Source of the DNA: Bugula neritina
Taxonomy: Eukaryota; Bryozoa; Gymnolaemata; Cheilostomatida; Bugulidae
Direction of reading: 5' to 3'
Length of the DNA stretch: 64,000 nucleotides
NCBI GenBank assembly: GCA_964035545.1
Contig: OZ037766.1
Coordinates: 7,573,722 to 7,637,721, forward strand
The notes under the pieces are model-generated. The model saw only the letters and a list, made by a program, of their open reading frames with translations. It did no database searches and was not told the DNA's origin. The translations under genes and the position numbers were made by a program. Positions within the stretch are counted from its first letter, which is position 1; every line of letters begins with the position of its first letter. Of this stretch, positions 31,401-55,700 are shown piece by piece.

Positions 31401-32400
31401 AGGTCCCTGCATTAGTTGAGAACCCCTGGTTATCAGCCACATCTTCTCCCAGTCTACCAGTTTATGTTATTTGTATTAGATGGTATGTATGACTAATTGT
31501 TTAACAGAAAACTCAGAGTGAAATAACGCAGATTGGGAGCTCAGAAAAAGGCAACAAGTCAACAGAGAGTGGTATCTGTGGTGTAGAGCTGAAAGAAGAT
31601 GTCTGTACATCAGTTCTCCTTAAGCTGAAAGAGCAAATGAAGAAGGTGTACAAAGAAAGACAGGTTTGCCTAAAAATGAATTCTAGTTTTAAAATTTAAT
31701 GCTTTTTTTATACAGTAGCTTTGATTTTAGTAAAAGTTTGAAGCTGGAGTGTTTTTCCTAACAACTAAAATATCATCCTGACTCTTCTACTGTCAAAACA
31801 AAGACCATGGGTAGCCCAACTTTTCAATAATTTTGGCTATCTAATTATCAAATATGTATCGATTGGCTTGGTATATGCAAGGTCAGTGGTTTAAATCTCA
31901 TTGGTGATGTTAGGAAGGGCATTCAATTATAATTGCTCCTGTGCCACAATAGTGAACAAGTCGTTAGCCCCCTTAAAAACTCCTTCCATCAGGGATTCTC
32001 ACAGGAGTGTTGCCTATAAACCCACTAAGTTTTTATCAATAAGTGAGCACATTTTCTTGTAGTTACAAGTAATTCTTTCTAAGAAAAGTTTATGTTTCTC
32101 CACTCCCTTTAGCCATCTTTTATCTTTAGTGCCAATCTGTGCAGTACCTTTTAATCACCTGCTTTTAGCCTGACTTCAGCCAGAAGATTTGGAAGTCCAT
32201 TATCATGTACATGCATGTTGGTGTTGTAAGATAATTATCTCCACCACTCTGTTGTTTAGAAGCACCTGCAGTCTGGCAAGAAGAGGAAGTATGAAATGTC
32301 GTGTACTAGTGAGATGCATCTTCCCTTACACACTGTAAACATGAAGCCTGAGGAGTCCGAAGACGCTGTTCGAACCAAATCCAATCAAACTGTTTCGTAA
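22416..32400 (+). CDS. DGCR8: Microprocessor subunit DGCR8/Pasha, canonical form
   Basis: Fifteen exons: 22416-22484, 22653-23000, 23692-24058, 24138-24283, 24397-24523, 24908-25105, 25408-25532, 26200-26293, 26429-26629, 26980-27104, 27520-27729, 28223-28282, 28819-28911, 31508-31663, 32260-32400. The total is 2460 nt (819 residues; human about 773). DGCR8 binds primary miRNA hairpins and partners Drosha in the nucleus. An N-terminal basic stretch (PPKKRKKSEKKKK) looks like a nuclear signal. The WW-like/haem region has LPEGWKEL and TWSRPY. The IPC motif at Cys321 matches the haem-ligating cysteine of human DGCR8. Two dsRBDs follow (about 492-570 and 602-715), the second ending near LKSWGSILRLYG. 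The last exons give the Lys-rich KLKEQMKKVYKERQ helix equivalent to the Drosha-binding tail. AATAAA lies at 32526-32531. An extra coding exon at 30033-30938 is listed separately. Confidence 0.95.
25571..25837. mobile_element. MITE-like element with imperfect inverted termini
   Basis: The left end (from 25571) and right end (to 25837) share the inverted motif CTAGACACAC(C/T)TTGCCGTAA. Further inward, a second inverted match (GCCATTTTTAA) occurs. Length is about 267 bp, with no coding capacity. Target duplication is not clear. It lies in the DGCR8 intron between 25408-25532 and 26200-26293. Confidence 0.55.
27190..27276 (-). tRNA. tRNA-Sec (selenocysteine), anticodon TCA
   Basis: On the minus strand the 87 nt begin GCCCGGATGA and end CACCTTTCGGGCG, the animal tRNA-Sec acceptor arms. 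The anticodon TCA is at 27241-27239, within CAGGCTTCAAACCTG. The long acceptor stem, 6-bp D stem (CCTCAG/CTGGGG) and long variable arm are present. Compared with the vertebrate sequence as I know it, the variable-arm stem shows a compensating C-G to A-T change (ATGTC/GACAT), which argues for function. A TTTTT Pol III terminator follows at about 27183-27187. An ATATATATA box at 27298-27306 lies 22-30 bp upstream, matching the external TATA used by tRNA-Sec genes. The gene lies antisense in the DGCR8 intron between 26980-27104 and 27520-27729. It decodes UGA in selenoprotein mRNAs. Confidence 0.96.
27298..27306 (-). promoter_or_regulatory. TATA-like box of tRNA-Sec
   Basis: ATATATATA 22-30 bp upstream of the tRNA-Sec 5' end. 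tRNA-Sec genes of animals use an external Pol III promoter (TATA plus PSE) rather than ordinary internal boxes alone. A PSE further up (about 27320-27350) is expected, but I cannot recognise it by eye. Confidence 0.6.
28487..28658. mobile_element. 152-bp fold-back MITE with 10-bp target duplication
   Basis: Element 28497-28648 is a long imperfect inverted repeat. Arms 28497-28558 and 28586-28647 share AATGGTTCTATAAGCAGC, GAGTGCAGTAGTTTGC and CTCAAG or their complements. It is flanked by direct repeats TCTCACTAAT at 28487-28496 and 28649-28658. A 9-10-bp duplication is typical of Mutator-like elements. It lies in a DGCR8 intron and has no coding capacity. Confidence 0.75.
30033..30938 (+). CDS. 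DGCR8: Alternative 3'-terminal exon of DGCR8 (Pro/Gln-rich C-terminus)
   Basis: A 906-nt frame follows a good acceptor (TTTTGCAG at 30025-30032). It is in phase 0, so it joins exon 28819-28911 in frame. The 301 codons without a stop in AT-rich DNA, and the low-complexity but protein-like composition, indicate real coding sequence. It encodes a Ser/Thr/Gln region, then PPPPAPP, poly-Gln stretches, and ends PQPPQQWY before the stop at 30936-30938. Using it would give a protein of about 1022 residues without the KLKEQMKK helix of the downstream exons. No obvious internal donor links it to 31508. I infer a mutually exclusive last exon; an intron-retention or separate-gene reading is less likely. 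Confidence 0.65.
   Translation, partial: QEKIFPAQGHQNTDASTQRQQSPENAAAVSNGQAAGHNLCKKKQLELDNSENLSGSMDGDSAVATTLSAFTQTAQQEIAGVSKSTQSDVGGMNSFYSNKCLKPCVVLEEGITAHENYLNNQGSYILLACTSTQTINFGHSTFHKATQMPEMSYNPYTNKNIVTKKPDFSGEAEKVATPQVAGRVTSPQADPAVISKLHKATQHPDKEYADPGHPPPPAPPFLWSDQQAISLQQSQLMQQQLLLQQQPQTQQPLPSYPYYYVDPNTGLPFYNPLQQYAANATSADPTHQNPLLSPQPPQQWY
31860..32035 (+). mobile_element. Diverged tRNA-SINE copy
   Basis: Shares with 60650-60900 the body sequence ATTGGTGATGTTAGGAAG(A/G)GCAT and the downstream GTGCC...AAGTC.TTAGCCC stretch. A weak B-box-like GGTTTAAATCTC precedes it. It lies in the last DGCR8 intron. Confidence 0.55.
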
Positions 32401-32525
32401 CAGCCTGTATTCAACACCCTAGTAATGGCTGATGATACATTATTTTTAGCTTCGACCTAACTGAGTGTGCATCATTGTACATGTTTGTACTGTTATACAA
32501 TTATTATATTACTGGAAATATTAGC

Positions 32526-32531
32526 AATAAA
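32526..32531 (+). terminator. DGCR8 polyadenylation signal
   Basis: Canonical AATAAA 126 nt after the DGCR8 stop codon. Confidence 0.6.
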
Positions 32532-32879
32532 CCTAAAGTGTTATTTATGTAATAGATATGTAACTGTTTTATATATTACTTTTAAATGAATCATCAGTCA
32601 ACTGTATCTTGTATAGACAATTCAAACTTTGTGATAACTCATGATTTATAATTTTTACATTTATATGTGTATCTATTGCTGTTTTATTTGAACAGAAATT
32701 TCTAGTCAAACTTGCTTTTGGACATTGAGAATTGCTATACTGCATTTGCAACAAAACACTTATGATATCATGAATAGAAACTTTGCACTGCTTTGCATTA
32801 AATAAAATATTGTAAAAGTATGGCAGATATATTAGTTTAGTGATATAGTAATTTAAGTTAGTTGTATAAAGTTGATTCT

Positions 32880-33075
32880 GGTGTCATGCTAGATTATAGG
32901 TAAAAAATGGCACAGGTAATAATGGCACAAATGGAAAAGTAGGTAAAAATGGCACATCTTATGTTAGATTTCCCCAAATTCAAACCCCTAAACCCCCATC
33001 CTAACCCCCCCCACCCCAATATTGTAAATGTGCCACTTTTACCTTTTTTCCATTTGTGCCATTTTTACCGGACAC
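32880..33075. mobile_element. Fold-back (inverted-repeat) element
   Basis: Left arm about 32915-32956 and right arm about 33028-33069 are inverted copies of ATGGCACAAATGGAAAA plus GGTAAAA(A/G)TGGCACAT. The outer ends share GGTGTC. A C-rich spacer (CCCCCCCACCCC region near 33005-33015) separates them. About 196 bp, non-coding. Confidence 0.6.
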
Positions 33076-33101
33076 CTGCCTGCTAGTATCTGCTATTAGT
33101 G

Positions 33102-36100
33102 CTAATAAATATCAGGCTCAGTGATATTTATTATTGGAGAGTCTGCATATTGTACTGAGTCCCGAACTCCCTCTCTTACTGTGGGTGTCATATAATCTCC
33201 TGATGCAGCATCTGCTCTACTGCGCTCACCCAATTCAATTGTATACGAATATTCTCCAGGTGGGCTCTGTTTACTCTCCAGTAATTTAATAGATTGTAGA
33301 AGCTCACTAAAGTGTGGCCTATTCTCTGGATTGGCACTCCACATCAACCTCATTAGGTCATATCTGTAACGAAATAACTTCACATTTACTGCTGCACTGT
33401 GATTTCTGCAGTTAGCTATTCGGGGCATATTATATTTATCAGATGGTAATATTCAAACAAGAGATTAACATGCAGTTGCTTAGAATATTTGTTCAGGCCT
33501 CACCACATACAATTGATAATACTCATAACTGACACTATCAACTGGTTATACTCACAATTGCTGAGATAAATTGTCAGGTTTAGAAAGTCTATAACCAGTT
33601 TCCAGACATTCTTGTAGAACTGACAAGTTGCCAATGGCTGGGTACGGAGAACTGCCATTAGTGAAGAGTTCCCAAATGGTTACCCCGAATGACCACTGGA
33701 ATAAAGATTTTTACTCTGATTAATCTTATTTCTAGAGAGAGAGAGAGCAAATCTTAAAACAACTTCTATCCTGTATTTTACCCAGTAAATTTAAGTTAGA
33801 GTTGTCAACCCGAGGAATTGAAATGAGTTCTAGTATTAAAATCATGTTCTGAAGAATTTCCCTAAGACTTGTAAATAACTGATCTGTAGAGATGCTATTA
33901 GATTGAGTTCTATGCATTACTTATGTACTTAAAATGTACATCAGCTCACCACATCGGATTTGTGTGTAAATGTTCCTTGCTTTATGCATTCAGGAGCCAG
34001 CCACTTCCATGGCAACTGCTTTTCAGTGACATCTGAACACTCGTATACTCTGCTGTCATATATATCTCTGGTTAATCCAAAGTCACTTATTTTTATTACA
34101 TACAGCTCACTCACCCTGAAAGTGAAATTAAAGGTAATTTAATTTTCATAGTATTCAACTTTTCACAACATTGAGATAGAATATTTCATACCATACAATA
34201 AGTTAATAGCTTCCAATTCAAAAACGATTAGCAACTTTAACATTTCAATTATTATTTATGTAATAAAAATATTTTATTTACAAGTACAAAGTTACACACA
34301 TACTTAAAAAATAGATGTACATTTCATGTAGCATGTTATATATGTACATTTTGGTTATTTCAAATTTCATAATATGTATTGTATTTCAGATAGATTACAT
34401 GTCATTGTAGTTTAAAAAATGCTCTGGTTTTTTATGTGGTTTGAATGAATTCCTGTTGAACTCTGGAGAATATTTAAACTCACAAGCAGTTACGTAATGC
34501 TATGTCTCTGTGCACGAACTTCATTCTCTCAAGGTACTCCAGTCCCGCTGCAATCTGCACCACAAAACTCATCCGATCCGTTTCACTGAATTTCTTCAAC
34601 ATAAAAATAAATAAAGTATAATTGGTAATGAGAACAGCTGCTTTTTTAATTTGTGACTCAAACTTAATAAACAGTTAAATAAAAAGTATTTCTAACAAAT
34701 GAACTCAACACATTGCTACCCGCATGCCATGTTTCATCAGTAAATGTTGCAGATAAATACCAAACTGTGAGGTTCTAAAAGAACTAATGATAGTTAAATA
34801 GTAATGCTAATAATGTTCAAACACATGACATATGCTATTCAGCCCAATTCCTATATCATTAAACATAATTATATGTATATTGTCTACAAGCAATCAATTA
34901 TTGTTATTGCAAACTTAAAATGCTTGTGACCTAACCATATACACAATCAAAGTACCAAACTTAATTTTCTTATATCTATACATGACTATTAATAAACTTT
35001 AAGCTAACCCTACAGCACATGAATAAAGCAACTTGAAATTTTTGTATTTGTAGTTTGTTGAAAAAGTTACAATAATAGTTTGATTTTTTGGCACTAGCAT
35101 ATAATATTTTAGTTATTGTCAGTTTTTCCTCAATTTCTAGTAAACCAATGAAATTGTAATAATTGAAACGAATGTAGCTATCAACAACTGCAAAACTAGT
35201 AAACAAGTTGTTGAGAAAATATGTTTGAAGCAATGTTGCCATAAATCTTACTTCAACTTTTGAAGCCCTAGCTTACCATGATACGGTTTAAGTGCATTCA
35301 AGACTAATTTGATATATCTGGTGAGTTTTAGGTGCACTAAGCTACTCGAAGGTACACAATCTTAGTCCTCACCATTTCACTCCTTTTGACCAGATCCAAC
35401 AGACTGCCTTTTCCCATATAAGGGCAGACAACTGCTGGGGATTCATCATTTTCCCAAATTAAGCCAATAAGGTTGATTACATTGATGTGATCAAATTGAC
35501 TCATGGTGTAGGCCTCTCGGAGGAAACTATGCACCTCTTCCTCATACTTTTCTCTGTTAGGATTCCTAATAGTCTTTATAGCTACTAACTTATATTTGGA
35601 GAGATTGGCGTCTGTAAAGTATTTAGCCTTTCTGATAACTCCGAACTGACCTGAAAAAAGGCAAGAGTGTAATTATATACTCCATTTATTCTACTACTGT
35701 ATTGTAAGAACATGTATAAGGCTCTAAGATATCCCTCAATATGTTTCACAGTTATACTGCAAAACGCTACTAAATCAAATTAATATAATTTTAATATGAA
35801 CTAAAGCTTACAACTGTTCATACTACCAGCAAATTTTAATGGCACTACTGAATAAACTCATTTTATTAAATAGCATGCTGAACTAAGCTCAAAATGCTAT
35901 GTTAAAAAGCCTTTGTTACAATAAGCTTGATAGATCCTATAATCATAATCTCAATTAGTCGATAACCATATTGACACTAAATGAACTGGTAATTAAATTA
36001 TTTAATAATACGTAATTATATATAATAAATATAAATATATATGTAATAATATATCTCAACTATGTTTTTGTAGTGAAGTGCAGGTAATACCTGCTTTAAT

Positions 36101-39100
36101 TTTATAGGCTTTAAAGGTAAATGTCAGTGGTCTCACTATTTGTGGTTTGCAATGTTTCATTATATATGGGTGACAGTTGTTGTTGTAAGTTTATATGCTG
36201 ATTTATTCTTATAGTTTTGTCGTTTCTGTAACATTTTTATACAAGTTGAATTCTAGTGTTTATTATGCCAGAATGAAATCAATTTATATAAAGCATAAAG
36301 CAGTTTGCTTTTTTTCTCTCTGTGTGGTACATTGAACATTCAAATCACCTTATAAGATGCCACTGCAGAGCTCTGTTGAAAAATCAAGTCTTTTTAGTTA
36401 AATCAATAAAGATAATAAGTTGTTAGCAAATAATTGTTTAACATAGCTGCTCCCTCATATACATTTGTTAAAATTTTTGTAGCTAGCAAATGAGAAAAAT
36501 AAGTTTTCAGTAAAAAAGGCCGAGTTTTATTGTAACTCATCTGAAATTTTGTTTATGATTGTCATATTTGCTGAGTGCAGCCTTCACTCATTTCTCAAAT
36601 TGCCAACACATCACTGTTTTCAACCAGCGTATAACATTTGCTTATTGCCATTAACTATTAGAGTTATCCTCTCAAATGCAAATTATTAAATCTAGTTATA
36701 TGAATATATGCATAAGTGTCATGACAACCACAAAGAATTTGTTGCTTAATAGAATGAAGCTCTAGTCCAAATTTTTGCAACCTATTTTGGTGGCATTATA
36801 TAATTTAGATCTCATTTATGGTAGCACCATCAACTATATACTTTATAGAGGGCACCTTGCAGTACCTTGTAAGATTGTCATTCTAAAAATATGTTTTACA
36901 GTGTAGCATGAAGGTGCAGTCATCTGGTGAACCAACGTTACAGCTCTTTAAATAGTATAATTTATTCAAGTGTAACTAGCTTGTTGTGTAAGCATAGACA
37001 CCGATGACAATATCATGATTGATAGACATACCCCTGCCTATTTCTTCCATGACTTCTATATAATCCAATGGCAATAAGTGTTGTTTTACCATATTCTTTA
37101 TTTCTTCAGAACACTGGTCCAGGCTAAAAGCTGACTTAAACTTTGCCTCTTCATATGAAGCATCAGGCCCATAGTTATAGCTGTTCTCATTTCTTACTGT
37201 CAAACAAACTAAAATATTGTACTCTTTTCAGAAGTAAATATATATTCATATATGATTTAAATAATGAACTACGATAACGTTGGCTTCAAGGTGCCAGCAT
37301 TAAAAATATACTATTATATCTCATGACCTAGTAATATCCTGGTTTTTGTATTCTGTGACACGCACACCGAGTATTTATTGTAACAAGCTGAGTTTTATGA
37401 ATCCTAAATAAAATACGCTCAAATTAGCATACTGCTAATCCTAAAAGTGCTCCCCAGACCGATTGTCCTTGTCAGAGTCGTTTCTGCTTATCTGAACATG
37501 AGTTATATGACTCACCTCCCAAACCAATCTCACTCATGGATTCATGTTGTCTTCGTTTCCGCTGCACATACCAAAGCACTGCTACGATCATGGCGACTAT
37601 AATGACCGTGCTTACCACAACTGGCACTACTATTGCTGTCACGGAAGCAGTGGTGGTGGTGGAAAATGTTGTAGCTAAATTAATAAAAGCAAGTTTTTGT
37701 TGCATGCAAGCTCATGTTAACAAGTATCTTGCACTTTCTACTTCATCGTTTAATAACATTTTTAAGAAACTAACATTGATTTGGTTTTGGTGGTGGTGGT
37801 GGATCAGCCACACCACATTGATCTACCATCCACTTGGCGTACTGTATGATATCAGGCGCTTGAGGCCGTAAGGAGCATGCGTCCTCTCCAAATGCGTGTG
37901 TAATGCCGTAATCAACGCAGAGCCTGTCTTCTAGTGCACCACGCCCACAATCTACATCTCTGTCAGAAATAACGTGATTGAACACACAGTTCCTGGCGCA
38001 TTGATCGTCGAAAGCACACTCTTTCCAGTCAGTGGCTGTCACATCTACCAGTTAACATATTGCACATCCTAGTATTTTGGTATGCCCAATACATCAACTT
38101 CATATCAATCCATGTTTATAATGGTAAGATATTGTCATGCTATTCTAAACATTGCTATGAAAGGAAAATTTGCAAAATATTTCCTGCTATGAGTCATTAA
38201 AACGCCAATTATCAATATATAGCATATAGCAGAAAATATTTTAGTTTTTTTTACTTCTAATTCTTGGGCCAGTCCGGCTGGTGCATCTCTCGTAGTAGAA
38301 CTCTGATATAGAGTATTCTCCACATGTCTCTCTTTCACTCGGAAGGGCTTTTGGCCAATCATGAATTATACATTCGCCTAGTACTGCAGGATTCACTGGT
38401 TTATTTAGCTCTACCTAAGAGGAGTTTAAACTTTAAAGTAATAAAAGTTAATATTAGTGATTATAATATGTAAAATGAGGTTTATTGGAATTGTTTGCTA
38501 GGTGTCTTGAAATAGGGTCAACTCTAATGTGAAATATTTGGCATTAACCTATCAAAATGCTTCTTTTAAATGATTCCTTGAAATATTGGCACCAAAGTTG
38601 TGGTAAACTTGTTTTTTGTAAATTTTGAAATAATCACATAGCTGAGTATAATAGCATCACCATTTAGGTGCAGTAGTAGAAAACTTTCCAGATGCCTGAG
38701 TTCTTTAGTTTTCTTTAAACAAATTTTGTTTACTGCATTTCTAATCTAGAAGACAGGCTTTATTTAATTTCTCCATTGCTGCACCTACCTCATCAAAATC
38801 TGCATTTGCTTTAAAAATAATTTGCTTTGAAAACATTTGCTTTAAAGTAGTGCTTTTGGCTCAAAAATCAAGTTTTAGTTTAAGCTGACAAATGCTACGA
38901 GATATTGGTTGACAGAAGAGCCAAAAAGCCAATGCGGAAGTAAGTAAAAGCACAGGTATGATTGGAGTTATGACCTTTGTTACTGCAGCACGTCAGCCCG
39001 AGAGTATACTTACAGTTCTTATGCAGTTTAAGCAGCCAGCAGTAATTACGGGCAGCACTGAAAATGTAAATACATAACATCAAGTATACAGTCTTATAGA

Positions 39101-39382
39101 GAACAGCATTAATGTTGTTACAATCACACAGTTCTGTGAAATACTATAAGTACAAGTATAGACTCGTGATGGGTCTGTTGTACTAATTAGTAAAAAAGTA
39201 TATTCTGTTGAAATGCTTCTTGCAAGCATGACTATACAATATTGTCACACCTGACTTGTAGCTAGTTAATACACATCACTTGATACTGAAACCTTCTCTA
39301 GTTACTTGCCAGCTATTGCCAACAATATGGCGATTGAGTTCATCAACACAATAGTGTGTCGAAAGTATGAGCATTGCACCAT
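33102..39382 (-). CDS. Receptor tyrosine kinase with i-type lysozyme-like ectodomain
   Basis: Eleven exons on minus: 39382-39310, 39057-39014, 38414-38255, 38044-37775, 37674-37516, 37208-37032, 35650-35373, 34593-34484, 34115-33950, 33695-33556, 33363-33102. The total is 1839 nt (612 residues). A signal peptide (MNSIAILLAIAVLPVITA core) is followed by about 138 residues with 12 cysteines in an i-type (destabilase) lysozyme pattern: CLNCI at 33-37, CGEYSI at 70-75, WKECAFDDQCARNCV at 99-113, CVDYGITHAFG at 135-145, closing CG at 169-170. E41 and D58 sit near where the family's catalytic Glu and Asp fall. Then come a Pro/Thr linker, a TM helix (about 194-220) and a basic stop (QRKRR). The kinase is complete: GRGQFG (about 292-298), VAIK K320, helix-C E340, HRD D417, N422, DFG 435-437, APE 464-466. 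The tail has several tyrosines, ending DIY. The first intron needs a GC-AG donor. Ligand and substrates are unknown. Confidence 0.85.
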
Positions 39383-39583
39383 TTGACAGATGTGCATTAT
39401 ATTGCATGCAGTGGCATTTTCTGTCAACCAAAATTGTGTATGTACTTCAAAATGGAGGACATACAACTTCACAATAGACTTACTAAATATTTCTCTTCAA
39501 AATTTATCTGGATATTTAGGGATCTGTACACATAATTTTGCACAACATATTTTCATGAATGCCGCTAATATTACTTGAACACA

Positions 39584-39622
<39 letters not shown>

Positions 39623-41704
39623 GCACACGCGCACACACACACATACGAGCCACTGTTGGAACTCCTGTTGGTAGGGGTTTGCAAGGGCTGTATGCTCACT
39701 ATGCAAACAACACAATTTAATTGAACCTCTATTTGTAATAAAGGATCAATAAATGCTATTCCAGGCATCAGAAACTATGATTGGAAACAATCACAGTACC
39801 ACTAATATTTTACCTGGTTGTATAGACACATGTAGGCTAATATTTAACTATATAAACATGTCTACACAGTTTGTACAGAACAGAGTAGAGATAGTCCTTC
39901 AAATAACTTACAAACTACATGAATACTTTGGATATAAAGATATTGTAGCATTTTTGTTAAAGCAAACCTTTAATCAATAGTTATCAGATTTTATTGTTTT
40001 TAAACTACTCATATTGATGTTATTTGACAATAAAACTGTATAGTATTTCTGTATAGTTATTTATAATATAAACTATATGCAAGACTAACTTATACACTTA
40101 GTCATAATATAAGAGTATCTCAAGATACAAATGTCATTTTTTTCTTTGACATACCTTCAGTTTTCCACTCCATAAAGTCCAATTATAACAGAATTTCAAG
40201 GTCTTGGAATAAGTCAATGTAACATGATACAATAATATTGTGCTACCCAGTCTATACAATGCAGTGCGGTGGTGTGAATAGTGAACACTACTGGTCACGT
40301 TAGAAACACTGCTCAAATACTAGTCTATAACTTATTATGCTAAACCAAACTATCACAACCATGACGACACACTTTCATGTCAAGCGGAACATGATTTTTC
40401 AAATGTGTTGGAGTTCTTTTTCTAAAAATAAATATTAATGTTACGCATGGCTACAACATAATTATAGCGAATGAGAAATCATCTCACGTAAATCCTTATC
40501 ATTTCAACACCATTTGAGAACCACCAGAAACAAGCATATCTACTGCTCATAGGTTCAACACTAGCATTACTGTCAGTGGTTGGCATATCTCAGTTTGCAT
40601 TATACAGCACCTGAGGGACTTTTTTGTTTGGTTTAAATTCATAAATTTTTCTCCAATCATCAACCATCACAGCACAATAAACAAGAGTTAAACTGTGACA
40701 TGAGCTTTTGTTAGCCTCCGTGTTACATAACAGTGGTTTTTATAGTTAGTTTTGCAGGAGCTAATATGATGCACTGCAGTATTTATTACTTTTTTGATCG
40801 CTTCCAAACAAGCATGGCATACTTTAGCAGACCCTCACAAAAACTTTTGATTACCAACTATTTAAGCTAAGCAGTACTTGTACTGGTTTATAAATGCAAA
40901 GATAATATGTTAATGTCTATTTTAGCCATGAGCCAGAACTTTTGAATATCATTTCCTAAAGCATTTCAACTGTATCAACTCGCACACTAAAAATGAATAT
41001 ACCCACGCAAATAAACTAAATTAAATTTGTATACAACTATACCCTACCATGCCAATTATCGACTAGATGTTTAAATATATGCAATCAAATACCAAATGCA
41101 CTAGTTTGTGCATACACAGTACTGTGAATCTACTTCTATTTTGCCATCTTCATGTGGGCATAGAGCCACGACCAATGCCAGTTATATGTTATAGTTTGTG
41201 TACAGTTGAACAATCACCACGTCAGTTTCTGCCAGCATTATTTGGTTTTTATTAGTGTCATTTACGTTTCCAATAAACAAAATATCCTATTTATAAACAA
41301 TTATATAATTCAAATGAGAGAAAAAACCTAGCTTTGGAGTTGTATTCTCAACCTGCTATCTTGTGCCGTAGCCTTACCATAATCTTCACTATGACACTAC
41401 CAACAACAAGCTACTTTATGGATATAAAGAAAGTGAAAGAAGCAATACATAAATTGACTCACAATGTTCAGAGTTATTTCCCCTTGTTACTTTTTGCCAC
41501 CTATTTTAATATTGTTGTCCTCTGGTCAGAAATCGTACCTCGAATCTTTTATATCTACTTAACAGAGATAAGCCATGTTTACTTTCACATACGCATGTAA
41601 TATAATCAAACAATGAGACAGAAATAACACAAGTAAGGAGCAACTTGACACCATACCCTTTGGTTTTTTTTAAATTGAACACCAGAGTGAACAATTACAC
41701 AAAC
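39383..41704. other. Divergent spacer between receptor kinase and first mucin-like gene
   Basis: No convincing coding exon on either strand. It holds the promoter of the kinase (minus) and of the first mucin-like gene (plus), a CGCA/CA microsatellite at 39579-39641, and otherwise AT-rich sequence. Small frames (for example 41334-41600 plus) are unsupported. Confidence 0.5.
39579..39641. repeat. (ACGC)n/(AC)n microsatellite
   Basis: About 60 bp of CGCA tetramers passing into CACACGCG and CA repeats, roughly 200 bp upstream of the kinase start codon. Alternating purine-pyrimidine sequence can adopt Z-form DNA. Confidence 0.95.
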
Positions 41705-44700
41705 ATGAAGGACAAGATGGAGTGCCAGTTGGTCTTTATTGTTCTTGTGCTAGCTCTGCCTCAGATATGTGCAGAACAAAACTTAATTGGTATGTATGCT
41801 TATCCATATAAGTAAGTACAGTACCAATTTCCTTTCACAGAAACTTAAATTTTTTTATATCGAAAAATATTGTTGAGTTGAAAGGAATTAATAGCTGTTG
41901 GCATATAAAGTGTTATCATATGTTTTGTTTACTATTTCTACTATATTTCAGTTAATGTACTAAATTACTGTGACTCAATTCTGTCTATGGCTCCCAACTC
42001 TAATGGCTATCTTATTGTAAAAGATCAAGGAACAGAGGCTATAGACTGTCTCATGGCTATTAAATCTTCTGCAGATAACGTCATTTCAACACGATTTCTG
42101 GTAAAAATATTTTTGTTTTTGAGTTTTTTAACAACGCACTTGAAATAAAGTAATCAACGCTTCAATGAGTTTTTTCAGCTTGACACACGAATACCAACAT
42201 TCATTACATCAGATAGCAAATGAGTGTGAACTGCATATTTTAGGAAATAAACTTTCCGTCATGTGACCAGACAAGTTTGGAGCTAATCTCAGTTTTGGGA
42301 CCATCAATAAATGATCAATACTCTGTCTTCGTATCCAAACCATTTTTCTGTGGTAAAAAAATGTCAGACGTGATCGACTTTGATCAGTATGGAGAGAGGC
42401 AGTGGAATATCTCACTGAGGTCGACTCCAAAGGGGGAACATAGTTATGCCAAATTCGCATTTTCAGTTCGTAAGCAAGAATTTTATCTCGCCTATTATAT
42501 GCTCAGAATTATTATAAAAATAGGCCCATATATTCAATAACAAAAATGGAAGCCAGCCCCACAAGTTATAATGCGAATCTTTCTTGTTAATGCATGATAG
42601 ACGTTGAATGTTCTGTTATGTCATAAATATATCGTGTCTTTAGATGAGCCAGACAGTCCAGCACAATTCCCATCAATTCAGAGCCCAGAAGTGTCCTCAA
42701 CAATTTCAACAACACCAACTTCAACAACACCAACTACAGCCGCACCAACTACAGCCGCACCAATTACAACCGCACCAACTACAGCCGCACCAACTACAGC
42801 CGCACCAACTACAGCCGCACCAACTACAGCTAAACCAACTACAGCCGCACCAACTACAGCTAAACCAACTACAGCCGCACCAACTACAGCCGCACCAACT
42901 ACAGCCGCACCGACTACAGCCGCACCAACTACAGCCGCACCAACTACAGCCGCACCGACTACAGCCGCACCAACTACAGCCGCACCAACTACAGCCGCAC
43001 CAACTACAGCCGCACCGACTACAGCCGGGCCAACTACAGCCGCGCCAACTACAGCCGCACCAACTACAGTTGCACCAACTACAGCCGCACCAACTACAGC
43101 CGCACCAACTACAGCCGCACCAACTACAGCCGCACCAACTACAGCTAAACCAACTACAGCCGCACCAACTACAGCCGCACCAACTACAACCGCACCAACT
43201 ACAGCCGCACCAACTACAGCTAAACCCACTACAGTTACACCAACTACAGCTAAACCAACTACAGCCGGGCCAACTACAGCCGCGCCAACTACAGTCGCGC
43301 CAACTACAGTTGCACCAACTACAGGTAAACCAACTACAGGTAAACCAACTACAGCTAAACCAACTTCAGCTAAACCAACTACAGCTAAACCAACTACAGT
43401 TGCTCCAACAAAGCCTCCTATTTCAACATCAACTACAGCAGTTGCAACAACAAGTCAAAAATTAATTTCAAAGCAGCCAAGCACAGCTAAGGCAGACCCT
43501 ACATCAAAATATACTAAAACGACACCACCAATCAAGAATACCGTTACATTCAGGTAAGTGGTAGCAAGTTACTGCGTTAAATGATTGGGCTTTTCTTAAA
43601 ACACTCTGTATTTTTCTTGGATAGAAAGGCTATGAATATTATGCCAAATAATTTTTTAAAAAAATTGTATGTGGCTGTGGGTCCAAGTTATCTAAACAGT
43701 ACGAAAATGTAACCCAAAGCTTATCATCACTTAGATAAGATAACATTATATTCCATGCATTATATTGAATATATTCCAATGTATGTGAGAATTAACCAAA
43801 TTTGTGATTGCAGTTTTTATAATTTCATCTGTCCAATGTTTACCACTGACACTAGGTATTAGTGTCTGTTGGAAACCCGAGTCATCACCAAACTATTCAT
43901 ATAATCAGTGAGTAAATGTTCTAAGCAGTTGATCTTGGCAATATGCCAGGTTCATTTCAAGTAAAATATAAGAAAAAAAACTAACGCAAAGCTTACCTGT
44001 ACAATAGCAATAAACGTAACAAAAATCATTTGAAAGTGAAATTTCAAAATAATAAAACTTATTAGAAATCTTTAGAATTATTTTTCCAGGTGTTCTTGTC
44101 CAATATCAATCACGGACTCCATTACCAAGTCAGCTATCCCTGGAGCTCCAATTGTTCATCTTGACAAATCATCACATCTTGTGTTTGATATAGCTGCAAC
44201 TGAAGGTGCTTCGTGTGGCAGCAACAGCTTAAAGAGCCAGTGTCAGCATCTCTGTTATAATAATGGTAAGTTATACACATATCTGCTGGTTTTCATAGCA
44301 ATATAAAGAAATGAAATTCTAAAGAAAAAACGTCTAACAACCCTACATTGAATTCTGGGAGTCAGCAACTTCACATACTGTCATACTCATCCTTTTAGTA
44401 AACTTATAACTCACACAGGGTGTTGGTTGCTTATATAATTGTCAACTAGTAATTAACTAATTATCTATTGATCTGGCATTCATATAATATTATATGATAT
44501 AAAATTATGCCATACCATATAATGTTATGTGTCATACCATATAATATTAAATATCATACCATATAATACTATATAATGTTATATGACATATAAGCATAGC
44601 ATGTATAACTGAACACCTATGAATATTACTTTACAGCGTACAAATTCTATAGACTCTATGGACCCAACAAAGCCGTCAGTATAAATGGAGCGTACAGTTT

Positions 44701-49718: not shown

Positions 49719-52700
49719 ATGGCTGTTGTAAAAGTGATAGTAGCAATAATTGTAGCTTTTGTGTATATGCCAAAGTTGCACGCAGAGGAGAATATGATAG
49801 GTGAGATCGTTATACTTTGATATTGCATAAAATTTATTATAACTTAATAATAAATGTGCACTAGGTGCTTTGAAAACTCCTTACGTAGCGGTTCAAAGTT
49901 ACAACTTTAATAAAATAGCTTTGGCATTTCTGTTTAATTGCTATATTATTATTACAGAGAGCTGATTAGGTACCTAAGTAATCATAATTATATATCAATA
50001 TTGATAATAGTATGATCGCATCATTATTATAATAAATTAGCTCAAGAAAAAAGAAAGCAGTTATTGAAGAAGTAACCTAGCATTTTATCTTTTATATTTG
50101 TTGAATATTTAAATCATTCTATTAAGCCTTTAGCTGTTATATGTATAACTTACTTACATATAAATGTTAACTGAATCCTAAATGCTTGCAAGGCGTTAAA
50201 GATGGACTATTGTGAAGATAAACATGTATTTTCTACAACGCTGAATATTATGATGATGGTTAGAGTCCTAAGCTGTATCAACACTCTTTTCTTGATTAAT
50301 TGCAATATATTGCAGTACTCATAATGGGAAATTTTGCCATTAGGTAAAATATTTTTAGTATTAAGTGAATAAGCTTTATTGAACATATAACATGTTACTA
50401 GGTTGAGTAGCGAAGAGAGAGTGACTAACAGTACATACATAAAGCAACAGTTTTTTATTTGAAAGCTTTACATGGCTTTTTTTTTTAAAGCCTGTATAGC
50501 AACCATGCCATAATACAACAAACTTTGTCATTAAGTAATATTCAGGCATATTATGATTATGATTGCTGTTATACATTACAGTGGAAGTATTACAAAACTG
50601 TGGCACAATTATTCCATTAAATTCAAATTCGAATGGCTACCTAATAGTCAAAGACGATGGAACTAAAGCTTTAGCCTGTGAAATGGGAATTAAATGCTCT
50701 GTGGAGAGTGTGATTTCAGCAAGATTTATGGTAAGTCAGGCTATACAGTCACTGCACCTGTGAAAGCATGTTTAAACTAAAGCTAAAAAAGTCAAAAATT
50801 TAATCTGTGTTTGTGAAAATTTGCTATGAGAATAAACTGCTTTTAGGAAATAAGTTTCTTATCGTGTGACCAATCAAGTTTAGAGCTTATTTCCATTTTG
50901 GGACCATCTGTGAAAGACCAATACTCCGTGTTTGAATCAACGCCATTTTTCTGTGGGAAAAAGATGTCAGATTTGGTAGACTTTGATCAGTATGGAGAGA
51001 GACAGTGGAATATCTCACATAGCACAATTCCAAAAGGCGAACCTAGCTACGCCATCTTTGCTTTTTCTGTCCGTAAGATAAGCTAGAAAATTAGTTATAA
51101 AATATGCAATCAGAATACAACACAATATTTTTAATTTTCACTAATGACACAAATGGAATCTGTTGAATTATATTTCTTAGATGAACCAAACTCACCTGCA
51201 CAGTTTCCTACTGGTGAAATCCCAACAGCTTCTTTCACAACAACTTCTGAAACTTCAAACCAACCTACACCAACCACAGCTAAACCAACTACAGCTAAGC
51301 CAACTACAGCTGCCCTAACTACAGCTAAACCAACAACAGCTAAACCAACTACAGCTAGACCAACTACAGCTAAACCAACTACAGCTAAACCAACTACAGC
51401 TAAACCAACTACAGCTGCCCTAACTACAGCTAAACCAACAACAGCTAAACCAACAACAGCTAAACCAGCTACGGCTAAGCCATCTAAAGCTGAACCTACT
51501 ACAGCCACACGAACAACAGCTGCTCCAACTACAGGTAAATCAACTACAGCTAAACCAACTACAGCTAAACCAACTACAGCTAAACCAACTACAGCTAAAC
51601 CAACTACAGCTAAACCAACTACAGCTAAACCAACTACAGCTAAACCAACTACAGCTAAACCAACTACAGCCGCACTAACTACAGCTGCTCCAACTACAGC
51701 TAAACCAACTACAGCTAAACCAACTACAGCTAAACCCACTACAGTTACACCAACAACAGCTGCTCCAACTACAGCTAAACCAACTACAGATAAACCAGCT
51801 ACAGCTAAACCAACTACAGCTAAACCAACTACAGCTAAACCAACTACAGCTAAACCAACTACAGCTAAACCAACTACCGATGCACCAGCTACAGTTACAC
51901 CTAATACAGCTAGACCAACTACAGCTAAACTAACTACAGCTAAACCAACTACAGCTAAACCAACTACAGCTAGACCAACTACAGCTAAACCAACTACCGA
52001 TGCACCAGCTACAGTTACACTTACTACAGCTAGACCAACTACAGCTAAACCCGCCACAGCTAAACCAACCACTGCTAAACCAACTACAGCTAAACCAACT
52101 GCAGCTAAACCAACTGCAGCTAAACCAACTGCAGCTAAACCAACTGCAGCTAAACCAACTACCGATGCACCAGCTACAGTTACACTTACTACAGCTAGAC
52201 CAACTACAGCTAAACCCGCCACAGCTAAACCAACCACTGCTAAACCAACTACAGCTAAACCAACTGCAGCTAAACCAACTGCAGCTAAACCAACTGCAGC
52301 TAAACCAACTGCAGCTAAACCAACTGCAGCTAAACCAACTGCAGCTAAACCAACTGCAGCTAAACCAACTGCAGCTAAACCAACTGCAGCTAAACCAACT
52401 GCAGCTAAACCAACTACAGCTAAACCAACTACAGCTAAACCCACCACAGCTAAACCAACTACAGCTAAACCAACTACAGCTAAACCAACTACAGCTAAAC
52501 CAACCACAGCTAAACCAATCCCAGCCACACCAACCGCAGCCACACCAACCGCAGCCACACCAACCGCAGCCACACCAACCGCAGCCACACCAACCGTAGC
52601 CATACCAACTACAGCCACACCAGCTGCAGCCACACCAACCGCAGCCACACCAGCCGCAGCCACACCAACCACAGCCACACCAACCTCAGCCACATCAACC

Positions 52701-55700
52701 ACAGCTCTACTAAAAACTAGTAAGCAAAATGCATTGCTTTACACCACTGCTAAAATTCACATATATAATATGTATCCTATAGTATAGTTGTATGTGCATA
52801 TAATATAAAAATAATTTTTTATGCAATTGCATGAAAAATTAAAAAGACAGTGATTCAAGTAAAGCTCTCCTACAGATCTTATTTAAATTAAAATTTTTTT
52901 TACTAATATTGCAAGAATAAGCATTTTTATGAATCAAAATATCTATTATAAGTAAACTGCTAAGAAATTAGAGTAGCATTATTGCTTATGTAGGTAAAAC
53001 TAATGACATGACTTCTCATCTCACGACTCTTTACGAGCAGTTCAACTCGACAAATAATAAGGAGGATTTCACAACACCAGACAAACAGGGGCCAACAACT
53101 ACTAAGTCATATGGAACATCTACAATACCTGCTACAGCTCAACATGAAATGAAGACATTTAAGCAATTCAGGTAAGCTGTACACCTGCATAGCTTACATC
53201 CATGCACTTTTTGAAAAAAATTTTTTATACATTTAAAAATAAGAAGTTGATGGCATAATATATATTATTTATTCACTTGAGTTGTAAAATAAACTGCAAT
53301 TTTTAAACAACCGTTGTAGCTGTACAAATAGAAAATTATTTTTAATAAATCACTTCATCCTAATTTTGGTGTGAATTTTAGTAGTTTTATAAAAAACAAC
53401 TTTCTCAGGTAATAATTATTGTTTTGTTTTTTCAATATTATACACCACCTGCTCAAAATTAGCAATAAGGATGCTGACCTTCTTTAACAAATGTAATTTT
53501 CCTTTGCCCTAAATTTATTATACACATTTTTTATCTATAGTGTAACAATGAACATAAAATCCCAAGGATAGTTGCTAAGAATACTGTTCTGATAGGTGTG
53601 CCTGCCCACTGACTATAACGGATGAGTACGCTAAAACAAGGAAGCGTGGATCTCCAGTGGTGTATCTTGAAGAAAATTCTCATCTATTATTTAATATTTC
53701 TACTGGCTCGAATGTTACTTGCGACGATGCAATGCTGGAAAACCAATGTGTGCAGATGTGTCATGACAATGGTAAAATCTCTCTGTATGATTACTTAGCT
53801 GCCAAGTCTCTGCTATAGTTCATGCCTTTGTTTGACCCATTTTGAAAACTTGGCTAAATTGCTAGCATTCACCGGATGACGTATAAAATATTAGACTTGG
53901 GTTTATAGTTTATAGGTTCTACAGATTGAATGGGCCCAATAAGCTAATCACAGTTGGCGGAGAGCCATGGCTTTTAGGTATGTGCCACCTTCATGTTATT
54001 CATTACTCTAAGTTTCAAGTGTTGACAGTATTAGATCACAAGCTACACTAGATAGTATCACATAGTAGTGGTAGTAGTACATGGTAGTGCAGGTAGATGC
54101 AACACCACCTTTCTTATACAAATGATTTTGACTAGTTTTCAGGCTTATTTGATCCTTTAATTAAGCAAAACTATGTGCTATACGAGGTTGTGCTACATGC
54201 GTTTAATATTCAGTAAAAGTTTGTAAAAGTAAAAAACTGGCACATCTTATTGTATGAGAATTCCTCGCACTTACTTACTTCTAAATTATAGGTGATTACA
54301 TATGTCAGTTTACATCAAAGATGGATGGAGCCCTCACAGCTCATTCTCACTTGAAAGACTGCCCTGCCTCTTCTGTCTCCCCACCTGTCTTTACTGTTGA
54401 CCCGGAATTCTTTTGTTACCATGGAGATTATTGCTCAAGAAACTACAGGAGGTGATGCTTGATTATTTAATTTATCTTTTTGTATCTTATATTGTGAGTG
54501 GCTGAATTGATATATATTGAGTTTTTAGATTGACTTAATAATATGAGCAAATATTTATATTGTTTTTTCTTGAAGGCTAGTTTGATTTTTTTCCTAAAAC
54601 AGCCACTCATCAAATGTCCAACATTAAAAGTGGTAAGCAATAAATTTTTGATCGAATACAGCATATAACTTATAAGTTGTATTTATATATAGCAATACAC
54701 ATATTATTGACTTCACTTAATGTGATGAATTATAAAACTAGTGCATATTTTTCAGACAAGCCCCAATGCCATTTCGGTCACAATCTAAAAGCTGTACAAA
54801 TGTGAAAGGTCAATTCAATCAAGAAAAAAAGTAAGTAGCATTTTCTTGATGAGTGTTTTATTATAGATGGCTGCCCATGTCTAACAGCAATGAATAGCAG
54901 TGTAGCTACTGTATGATTAAGTTGACAGTTGAATTGTCTTTGTGATACCTTGACAGGTGTAGCTGCCTCATTGGCACTTCTACAAACCAAACAGTTGAGC
55001 TACAGACTACCATTACTCCAAGGAATTTGACTGGAGATTGTTTAAAAGTTGTGAGTGAATGTCACCAGTATTGTCTGGCACGTGGTAAGTTTTCTTGAAT
55101 CCATTTTGATGTAGCAGTTTTTTCTCGGACTGTTAAAAAACAGAAATAAGAAAGCTATAACTTCAAATCAACTTTTGTAGTTTACAATTTCAATGGCTTC
55201 ATGCAGCTTATTAACTGCAAAAAAGCTCACTAGTTGGCATGTATAATATTAATTATTTGGAAAAAAGCTTATACATGGGTAGCAACTTCTTTATTCAATT
55301 AGAAAATAGAATCAAGGTGCCAGTAATAGCAACTTTATTATGCATTTATTATATGTATGTATTTGTTAAGGTGCTGTGTTTTGCTAGGTGCCTACATTCA
55401 TTTCCGAGGTGGTATAACCAAAATTGTTGAGGAAGTGTGGAAGTCAGGGCAGCCAAACTTTATGAACCTACGTATAAGTCAGTTTTGTTACATATCCCAA
55501 TTATTTGCATTATATATTATTACATTTTGCAATTTGAAATGCATATACTCATTTACAGTAAATAACTTCATCATATGATTTGCATAAACTAGCTACAGCA
55601 CACAATTTAGGTAAGAAAAATTTCAAATCTGCAGTCTTGTAGAGTATTAAGCTGGTACATGCTACAGCGTGCTTGATTATAGTTATGTAAAGCATTGTCT

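Follow-up and report, generated by a model that had tools for sequence, protein, structure and literature searches.

A gene in the bryozoan Bugula neritina is predicted to encode a receptor tyrosine kinase (RTK) in which a likely signal peptide is followed by a single i-type lysozyme/destabilase domain, a Pro/Thr linker, one transmembrane (TM) helix, and a complete tyrosine kinase domain. Lysozymes are enzymes that degrade the walls of bacteria. We consider it nearly certain, from the sequences compared here, that this is a real single-pass RTK of cheilostome bryozoans with that architecture, and the predicted fusion is common to two cheilostome families. Taken as a whole, the explanation that it is a lysozyme-ectodomain RTK working as a glycan sensor appears fairly probable. 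PGRPs, NODs, and lectins are the known animal sensors of the bacterial cell wall; RTKs are not known to have that role. If the explanation is true, a single molecule would join microbe recognition to growth-factor-type signaling, and it would do so in a species noted for its defensive bacterial symbiont (PMC11480708).

Gene model of the receptor

The gene lies on chromosome 2, on the minus strand of the window, by which we mean the whole 64,000-nucleotide stretch of DNA that was analyzed. We rebuilt it exon by exon from positions 32000-41000, reading the open frames of both strands. The rebuilt gene has 11 exons and, with its stop codon, spans 39382/39343 to 33102; a start at the ATG at 39343 gives a product of 595 residues, and a start at an in-frame upstream ATG at 39382 gives 608. 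The rebuild returned the same ends (33102-39382) as an earlier, sequence-only reading of this DNA; the 612-residue model of that reading was not recovered, being 4 residues longer than the 608-residue product.

Exons 2 to 11 (39057 to 33102) read as one uninterrupted frame in which the phases agree, and each of the nine introns between them is GT-AG; intron 1 has a GC donor (exon end 39310, G|GCAAGT). Exon 1 (39310..39343), which was placed by a hydrophobicity scan, would supply the ATG and the start of the signal peptide and end in phase 1; it is the weakest piece of the gene model and rests on the GC donor. A scan for first exons across 39.06-42 kb left 16 rows after filtering; the leader hydrophobicity was 3.45 for the three with the GC donor, against 1.98-2.75 for the remaining 13, and this most hydrophobic leader is MNSIAILLAIAVLPVITA. 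Judged by hydrophobicity alone, the receptor likely has a signal peptide, one that depends on the GC donor. A CA/CG-rich simple repeat (cacgcacg...) lies immediately upstream of exon 1, at 39580-39644 of the window.

Exon 2 (39014..39057; 44 nt, phase 1-0) holds the end of the signal peptide and the CLNCI motif. The exon-2 frame that the GT donor GGCAA|GTAACT of exon 1 would set (AARNYCWLL...) was rejected, since it is not open through to exon 3. The alternative frame contains CLNCI, the lysozyme motif, and leaves exon 2 in phase 0, as required. Exon 3 (38255..38414, phase 0-1) carries Glu28, the HDW loop with Asp45, and the motif CGEYSIS; exon 4 (37775..38044, phase 1-1) carries the remainder of the lysozyme domain, with a His at the position of destabilase His112, and a Pro-rich linker. 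A Thr-rich linker, the TM helix, and a basic stop-transfer segment follow in exon 5 (37516..37674, phase 1-1), and the juxtamembrane segment and the start of the kinase in exon 6 (37032..37196, phase 1-1). The kinase N-lobe, with the glycine loop, VAIK, and the alpha-C Glu, is encoded by exon 7 (35373..35650), the catalytic loop HRDIALRNC by exon 8 (34484..34593), DFG, the activation loop with DIYDSRVYE, and KWLAPE by exon 9 (33950..34115), and the C-lobe by exon 10 (33556..33695). Exon 11 (33102..33363) contains the end of the kinase, a tyrosine tail with YSYTI, DYMTP, QYADS, and DIY, and the stop codon TAG.

Upstream of the gene and in divergent orientation, two plus-strand open frames (window 42601-43554 and 51135-52784) contain long Thr/Pro/Ala repeats that look mucin-like by eye; they scored 45.9 and 125.8, respectively, against Extensin_1 (Pfam cut-off 105).

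Two domains on one protein, and a second bryozoan

By sequence, the ectodomain is predicted to be one i-type lysozyme domain. Residues 19-157 contain 12 Cys, and Destabilase (PF05497) was matched at 38.7 bits (E 1.3e-9, residues 53-139), above its cut-off of 26.2, which bears out the 12-cysteine i-type lysozyme ectodomain proposed in the sequence-only reading. The open frame of exon 4 alone gave 28.1 bits against the same cut-off. Outside the kinase, Destabilase was the sole Pfam family above cut-off; in an NCBIfam search, every match fell under its cut-off. We also built a canonical profile from five i-type lysozymes (two secreted Bugula lysozymes and three of solved structure), with columns taken from a larger alignment. 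On it, the ectodomains of the receptor and of its Watersipora counterpart scored 30.1 and 29.4 bits; 30.1 bits was reached by none of 5000 full shuffles (maximum 15.4) and none of 5000 cysteine-fixed shuffles (maximum 16.3). Four kinase-less membrane lysozymes scored 46.6-64.1 on the same profile, so it is the RTK ectodomain that has diverged further. Aligned by hhalign as profiles, the two RTK ectodomains and the three solved i-type lysozymes gave a probability of 94.4 and an E value of 8.5e-8 over 93 columns.

A phmmer search of the PDB with the ectodomain found no lysozyme and only an unrelated structure at E 0.6, and the two-sequence RTK profile matched no solved structure at E<=1. A profile that also contained Bugula paralogs matched 8bbu, 2dqa, 4pj2, and 3ab6, in part because of the paralogs themselves. 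AlphaFold gave a low-confidence ectodomain for the Watersipora protein P0002 (block pLDDT 26-53 over residues 1-180) and a low-confidence model for the kinase-less Bugula protein P0121 (mean pLDDT 46.3); a fold search of the PDB with the latter listed 44 matches, none of which reached E<=0.001. The model of P0002 does contain a helix at residues 189-215, with block pLDDT of 92-94 for 191-210, and the predicted receptor clearly has one TM helix.

The Pfam search proposed in the sequence-only reading placed PK_Tyr_Ser-Thr (PF07714) on the same protein as Destabilase, at 279 bits over residues 269-533; PF00069 scored 157.5, and the open frame of exon 7 alone gave 56.8 bits with PF07714. The kinase, which that reading had called fully conserved, has the full motif set: GRGQFG (276), VAIK (300-303), FLREA (320-324), HRDIALRN (398), DFG (418), and KWLAPE (444), so that the catalytic Lys, Glu, HRD, and DFG are all present. 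MET chains (MET/RON family) were the best PDB kinase matches (~200 bits), behind one two-stretch EGFR entry, and a MER-annotated fish protein (TAM family, AXL/MER) was the best named non-bryozoan match among the matches listed; it was outscored by P0003-P0005, which, judged from their sequences, have two kinase domains each. Among the non-bryozoan proteins listed, the ten best were 36-42% identical to the receptor kinase. Unlike the MET/RON and TAM ectodomains, the receptor contained no Sema/PSI/IPT, Ig, or FN3 domain detectable with Pfam.

A full-length protein search, in which 7989 candidates were scored and the best 120 of 1226 matches examined, identified P0002 from Watersipora subatra (Watersiporidae), a protein of 598 aa with 52% identity to the receptor over 98%. 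It was the only protein with PF05497 among these best 120 of 1226 matches listed; it has both Pfam domains (Destabilase, 39.4 bits) and shares 12 of 12 ectodomain cysteines with the receptor. The segments differ in identity (lysozyme 54%, linker 36%, TM 36%, juxtamembrane 31%, kinase 68%, and tail 39%), which indicates that both folded domains are held and the surrounding parts drift. Within the tail, the motifs YSYTI, YMxP, and YAD are common to both receptors. Isoform X2 of P0002 has an N-terminus without an evident signal peptide.

A further Bugula neritina protein, P0001 (443 residues, 96% identical to the receptor), has its first residues within the lysozyme exon (MVDQCGVADPPPP...) and extends across the TM helix and the kinase; the exon-6 junction GLG-VRNENS is identical in this independent protein. 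We take P0001 to originate from the 2020 Bugula neritina draft, which was annotated by AUGUSTUS with transcriptome hints (PMC7576161). A gene-model artefact, in which neighboring lysozyme and kinase genes had been wrongly joined, would agree with a model known here from genomic DNA alone and with an exon 1 that needs a GC donor; the full-length fusion in Watersipora, however, makes it very unlikely, and the TM exon between the two parts with its matching phase-1 borders, the span of P0001 from the lysozyme exon through the kinase, and the transcriptome hints used for its presumed source (PMC7576161) argue against it too. The single-gene architecture of the sequence-only reading holds, and the wider look at invertebrate proteomes that it had suggested turned up the fusion in this second bryozoan. 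The hint at sponges in that reading was not borne out, the animal being a bryozoan.

The genome searched was Bugula neritina tzBugNeri2.1 (covered here by 215.8 Mb in 295 contigs; C1 and C2 below are chromosomes 1 and 2). With an ectodomain-plus-TM query, the lysozyme-kinase fusion was met once: three of the five matches came from the receptor gene itself and two from a lysozyme array on C1. A protein search with the ectodomain-plus-TM profile returned four proteins. A homology search restricted to the ectodomain did not find the fusion outside bryozoans, which is weak evidence because the search missed even P0002.

The sequence-only reading knew of no described family with this architecture; among the papers listed by full-text literature searches, judged by titles and abstract starts and with few subscription journals covered, none described a lysozyme- or destabilase-containing RTK. 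PGRP-LC and other PGRP receptors resemble the bryozoan receptor in that a wall-hydrolase fold at the membrane senses peptidoglycan; that fold is an amidase, and these receptors have no kinase of their own. In CHRK1-type receptors of plants, unlike in the bryozoan receptor, a GH18 fold is joined to a plant-type kinase, and we infer that the two types are independent inventions. The CHRK1 type, in which a receptor kinase bears a chitinase fold, is the nearest idea that we found in print; as in the bryozoan receptor, the ectodomain of the kinase has the fold of a glycoside hydrolase, and 91 plant sequences of CHRK1-type receptor-like kinases with a GH18 chitinase ectodomain are reported (PMC5485988).

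Active site and proposed glycan sensing

Leech destabilase has the muramidase pair Glu34/Asp46 and the proposed isopeptidase residues Ser49/Ser51 and His112 (PMC10126035). We compared these positions in an alignment of the two RTKs, three solved and two secreted Bugula lysozymes, and four kinase-less membrane lysozymes. Like the i-type lysozymes/destabilase (8bbu, leech destabilase; 2dqa, Tapes lysozyme; 4pj2), the receptor has the Cys framework, a Glu after CLxC, CGxYxIS, and a His at the His112 position. The three solved lysozymes aligned are free proteins, whereas the receptor domain is membrane anchored with a kinase, and it differs from them in its longer cleft loop, its shifted Asp, and its lack of Ser49/51. 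The receptor lacks the third Cys of CIC, and so do the two aligned secreted Bugula lysozymes.

Glu28 (595-residue numbering) and its Watersipora counterpart have the same spacing from CLxC as the Glu of the three solved and two secreted Bugula lysozymes. Destabilase Asp46 aligns with a His in both RTKs; Asp45 adjoins it (HDW), in a loop about 7 residues longer. The sequence-only reading had put these two residues, as Glu41 and Asp58, near the catalytic positions: the Glu is indeed in place, but the Asp, though close, is shifted and sits in the enlarged loop. Ser49 and Ser51 are missing in both RTKs, and the His of the His112 position is kept in both. With Glu and His kept and both serines gone, a glycosidase or glycan-binding site in the RTK ectodomain is plausible, and a destabilase-type isopeptidase is not.

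We lean slightly toward a glycan-sensing role. The ectodomain would bind beta-1,4-linked GlcNAc/MurNAc glycans in the lysozyme cleft, that is, peptidoglycan, its fragments, or perhaps chitin, and this binding, or a polymeric glycan that bridges several receptors, would pair the ectodomains. Within each pair, the kinases would then trans-phosphorylate one another on the activation loop (DIYDSRVYE) and on the tail tyrosines, to which SH2 adaptors would be recruited; the receptor would thereby link the sensing of bacterial wall or chitin to tyrosine phosphorylation. Tapes lysozyme was reportedly found, by Goto et al. in 2007, to change its quaternary structure together with its chitinase activity, so a lysozyme pair would, speculatively, be a natural switch.

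It is possible, although on the unlikely side, that the ectodomain binds no glycan and has become a module for an endogenous protein or for the surface of another cell, as in growth-factor receptors. The loop of the catalytic Asp is remodeled and longer, Ser49/51 are lost, the RTK lysozyme domains have only 22-34% identity to the canonical lysozymes aligned, and their canonical-profile score is below that of the kinase-less membrane lysozymes; moreover, signaling requires binding and not catalysis. A drifted non-glycan module, however, need not keep the catalytic Glu, which is kept in both bryozoans. It is quite improbable that the protein acts chiefly as an enzyme tethered to the surface of the lophophore or gut, with a digestive or antibacterial function and a kinase that reports substrate turnover or is secondary: Glu28 is kept and Asp45 is near, and i-type lysozymes are abundant in the genome (28 Destabilase matches at E<=0.001, receptor exons excluded), but a single tethered enzyme would presumably add little to such a large secreted set, and no segment of the protein is better conserved than the kinase (68%), which is complete.

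Membrane-anchored lysozymes without a kinase

Thirteen of the lysozyme regions of the genome were taken for closer reading. Most of the 28 Destabilase matches fall in two i-type lysozyme arrays, at C1:642887-677897 (6 of 28) and C2:12729666-12786488 (17 of 28); the arrays were represented in the residue counts by L030 and L031 only. At C2:28.32-28.346 Mb, three lysozyme loci each have a TM exon and a tail exon (~153-173 residues) downstream on the same strand. In the cluster as a whole (C2:28316500-28350200; L026, L027, L028, and L036), the lysozyme domains number three, against four TM exons and four tail exons; the extra TM-plus-tail cassette, at 28332995-28334244, may have arisen by partial duplication or may serve as an alternative 3' end. 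When L028 was spliced at its sites, its exon phases were the same as in the RTK gene, with a 44-nt exon at the place of receptor exon 2. All four tails contain YEQP, and three of the four contain YVNT, with HVNT in the fourth; pYxN and pYxxP are known SH2-binding patterns. Another lysozyme gene, L029 (C1:10364600-10374500, 10.37 Mb), has a TM exon downstream, and its Bugula neritina relative P0121 (213 aa, annotated as a lysozyme) combines a lysozyme domain with a TM segment and a short tail. Open frames that resemble endonuclease/reverse transcriptase by eye follow on the L029 strand, about 3 kb downstream.

A similar kinase at the other membrane-lysozyme loci was looked for and rejected: tblastn gave no match to the receptor kinase at E<=0.01 in the 10 regions L026-L035. 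L036-L038 lay outside that scan; among the 124 of 334 genome candidates that were scored, there was no kinase match near C2:28.3 Mb. As predicted from these genes, there are kinase-less membrane-anchored lysozymes at three loci with tyrosine-motif tails and at one with a short tail, and lysozymes in Bugula neritina are predicted to have been put on the membrane and to have diversified there.

The catalytic Glu, kept in the kinase version, appears to be absent from the four aligned kinase-less membrane lysozymes. The residue at the Glu position is R, R, H, or Q in L026, L027, L028, and P0121; three of the four have a Glu two residues further on (RPE/HPE), so this apparent loss depends on the alignment, since an indel could realign that Glu. 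Two rows were left out of the residue counts, namely L029, for which the annotated ortholog P0121 was used, and the secreted-type row from L034, which was roughly joined and has Asp at the Glu position. As aligned, the membrane form in which the Glu is clearly kept is the kinase version.

The lysozyme RTK shows a route from effector enzyme to receptor, and, because secreted-type, membrane-anchored, and kinase-bearing versions occur in one genome, the steps of the conversion are open to side-by-side study. The membrane pseudo-lysozymes with YxN and YxxP tails might serve as co-receptors or substrates of the receptor. An unlikely but broader proposal would be a bryozoan receptor system made from i-type lysozymes, in which a catalytically competent RTK and pseudo-lysozymes with phosphotyrosine-docking tails, as co-receptors or substrates, would form a direct pathway from peptidoglycan to tyrosine phosphorylation, possibly for recognizing or tolerating bacterial symbionts such as the bryostatin producer of Bugula neritina.

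Kinase matches on contigs C28, C48, C58, C86, C120, C131, C134, C153, C159, C169, C173, and others repeatedly contained in-frame TAA/TAG and almost never TGA; these high-numbered contigs probably belong to an organism with a ciliate-type code within the assembly.
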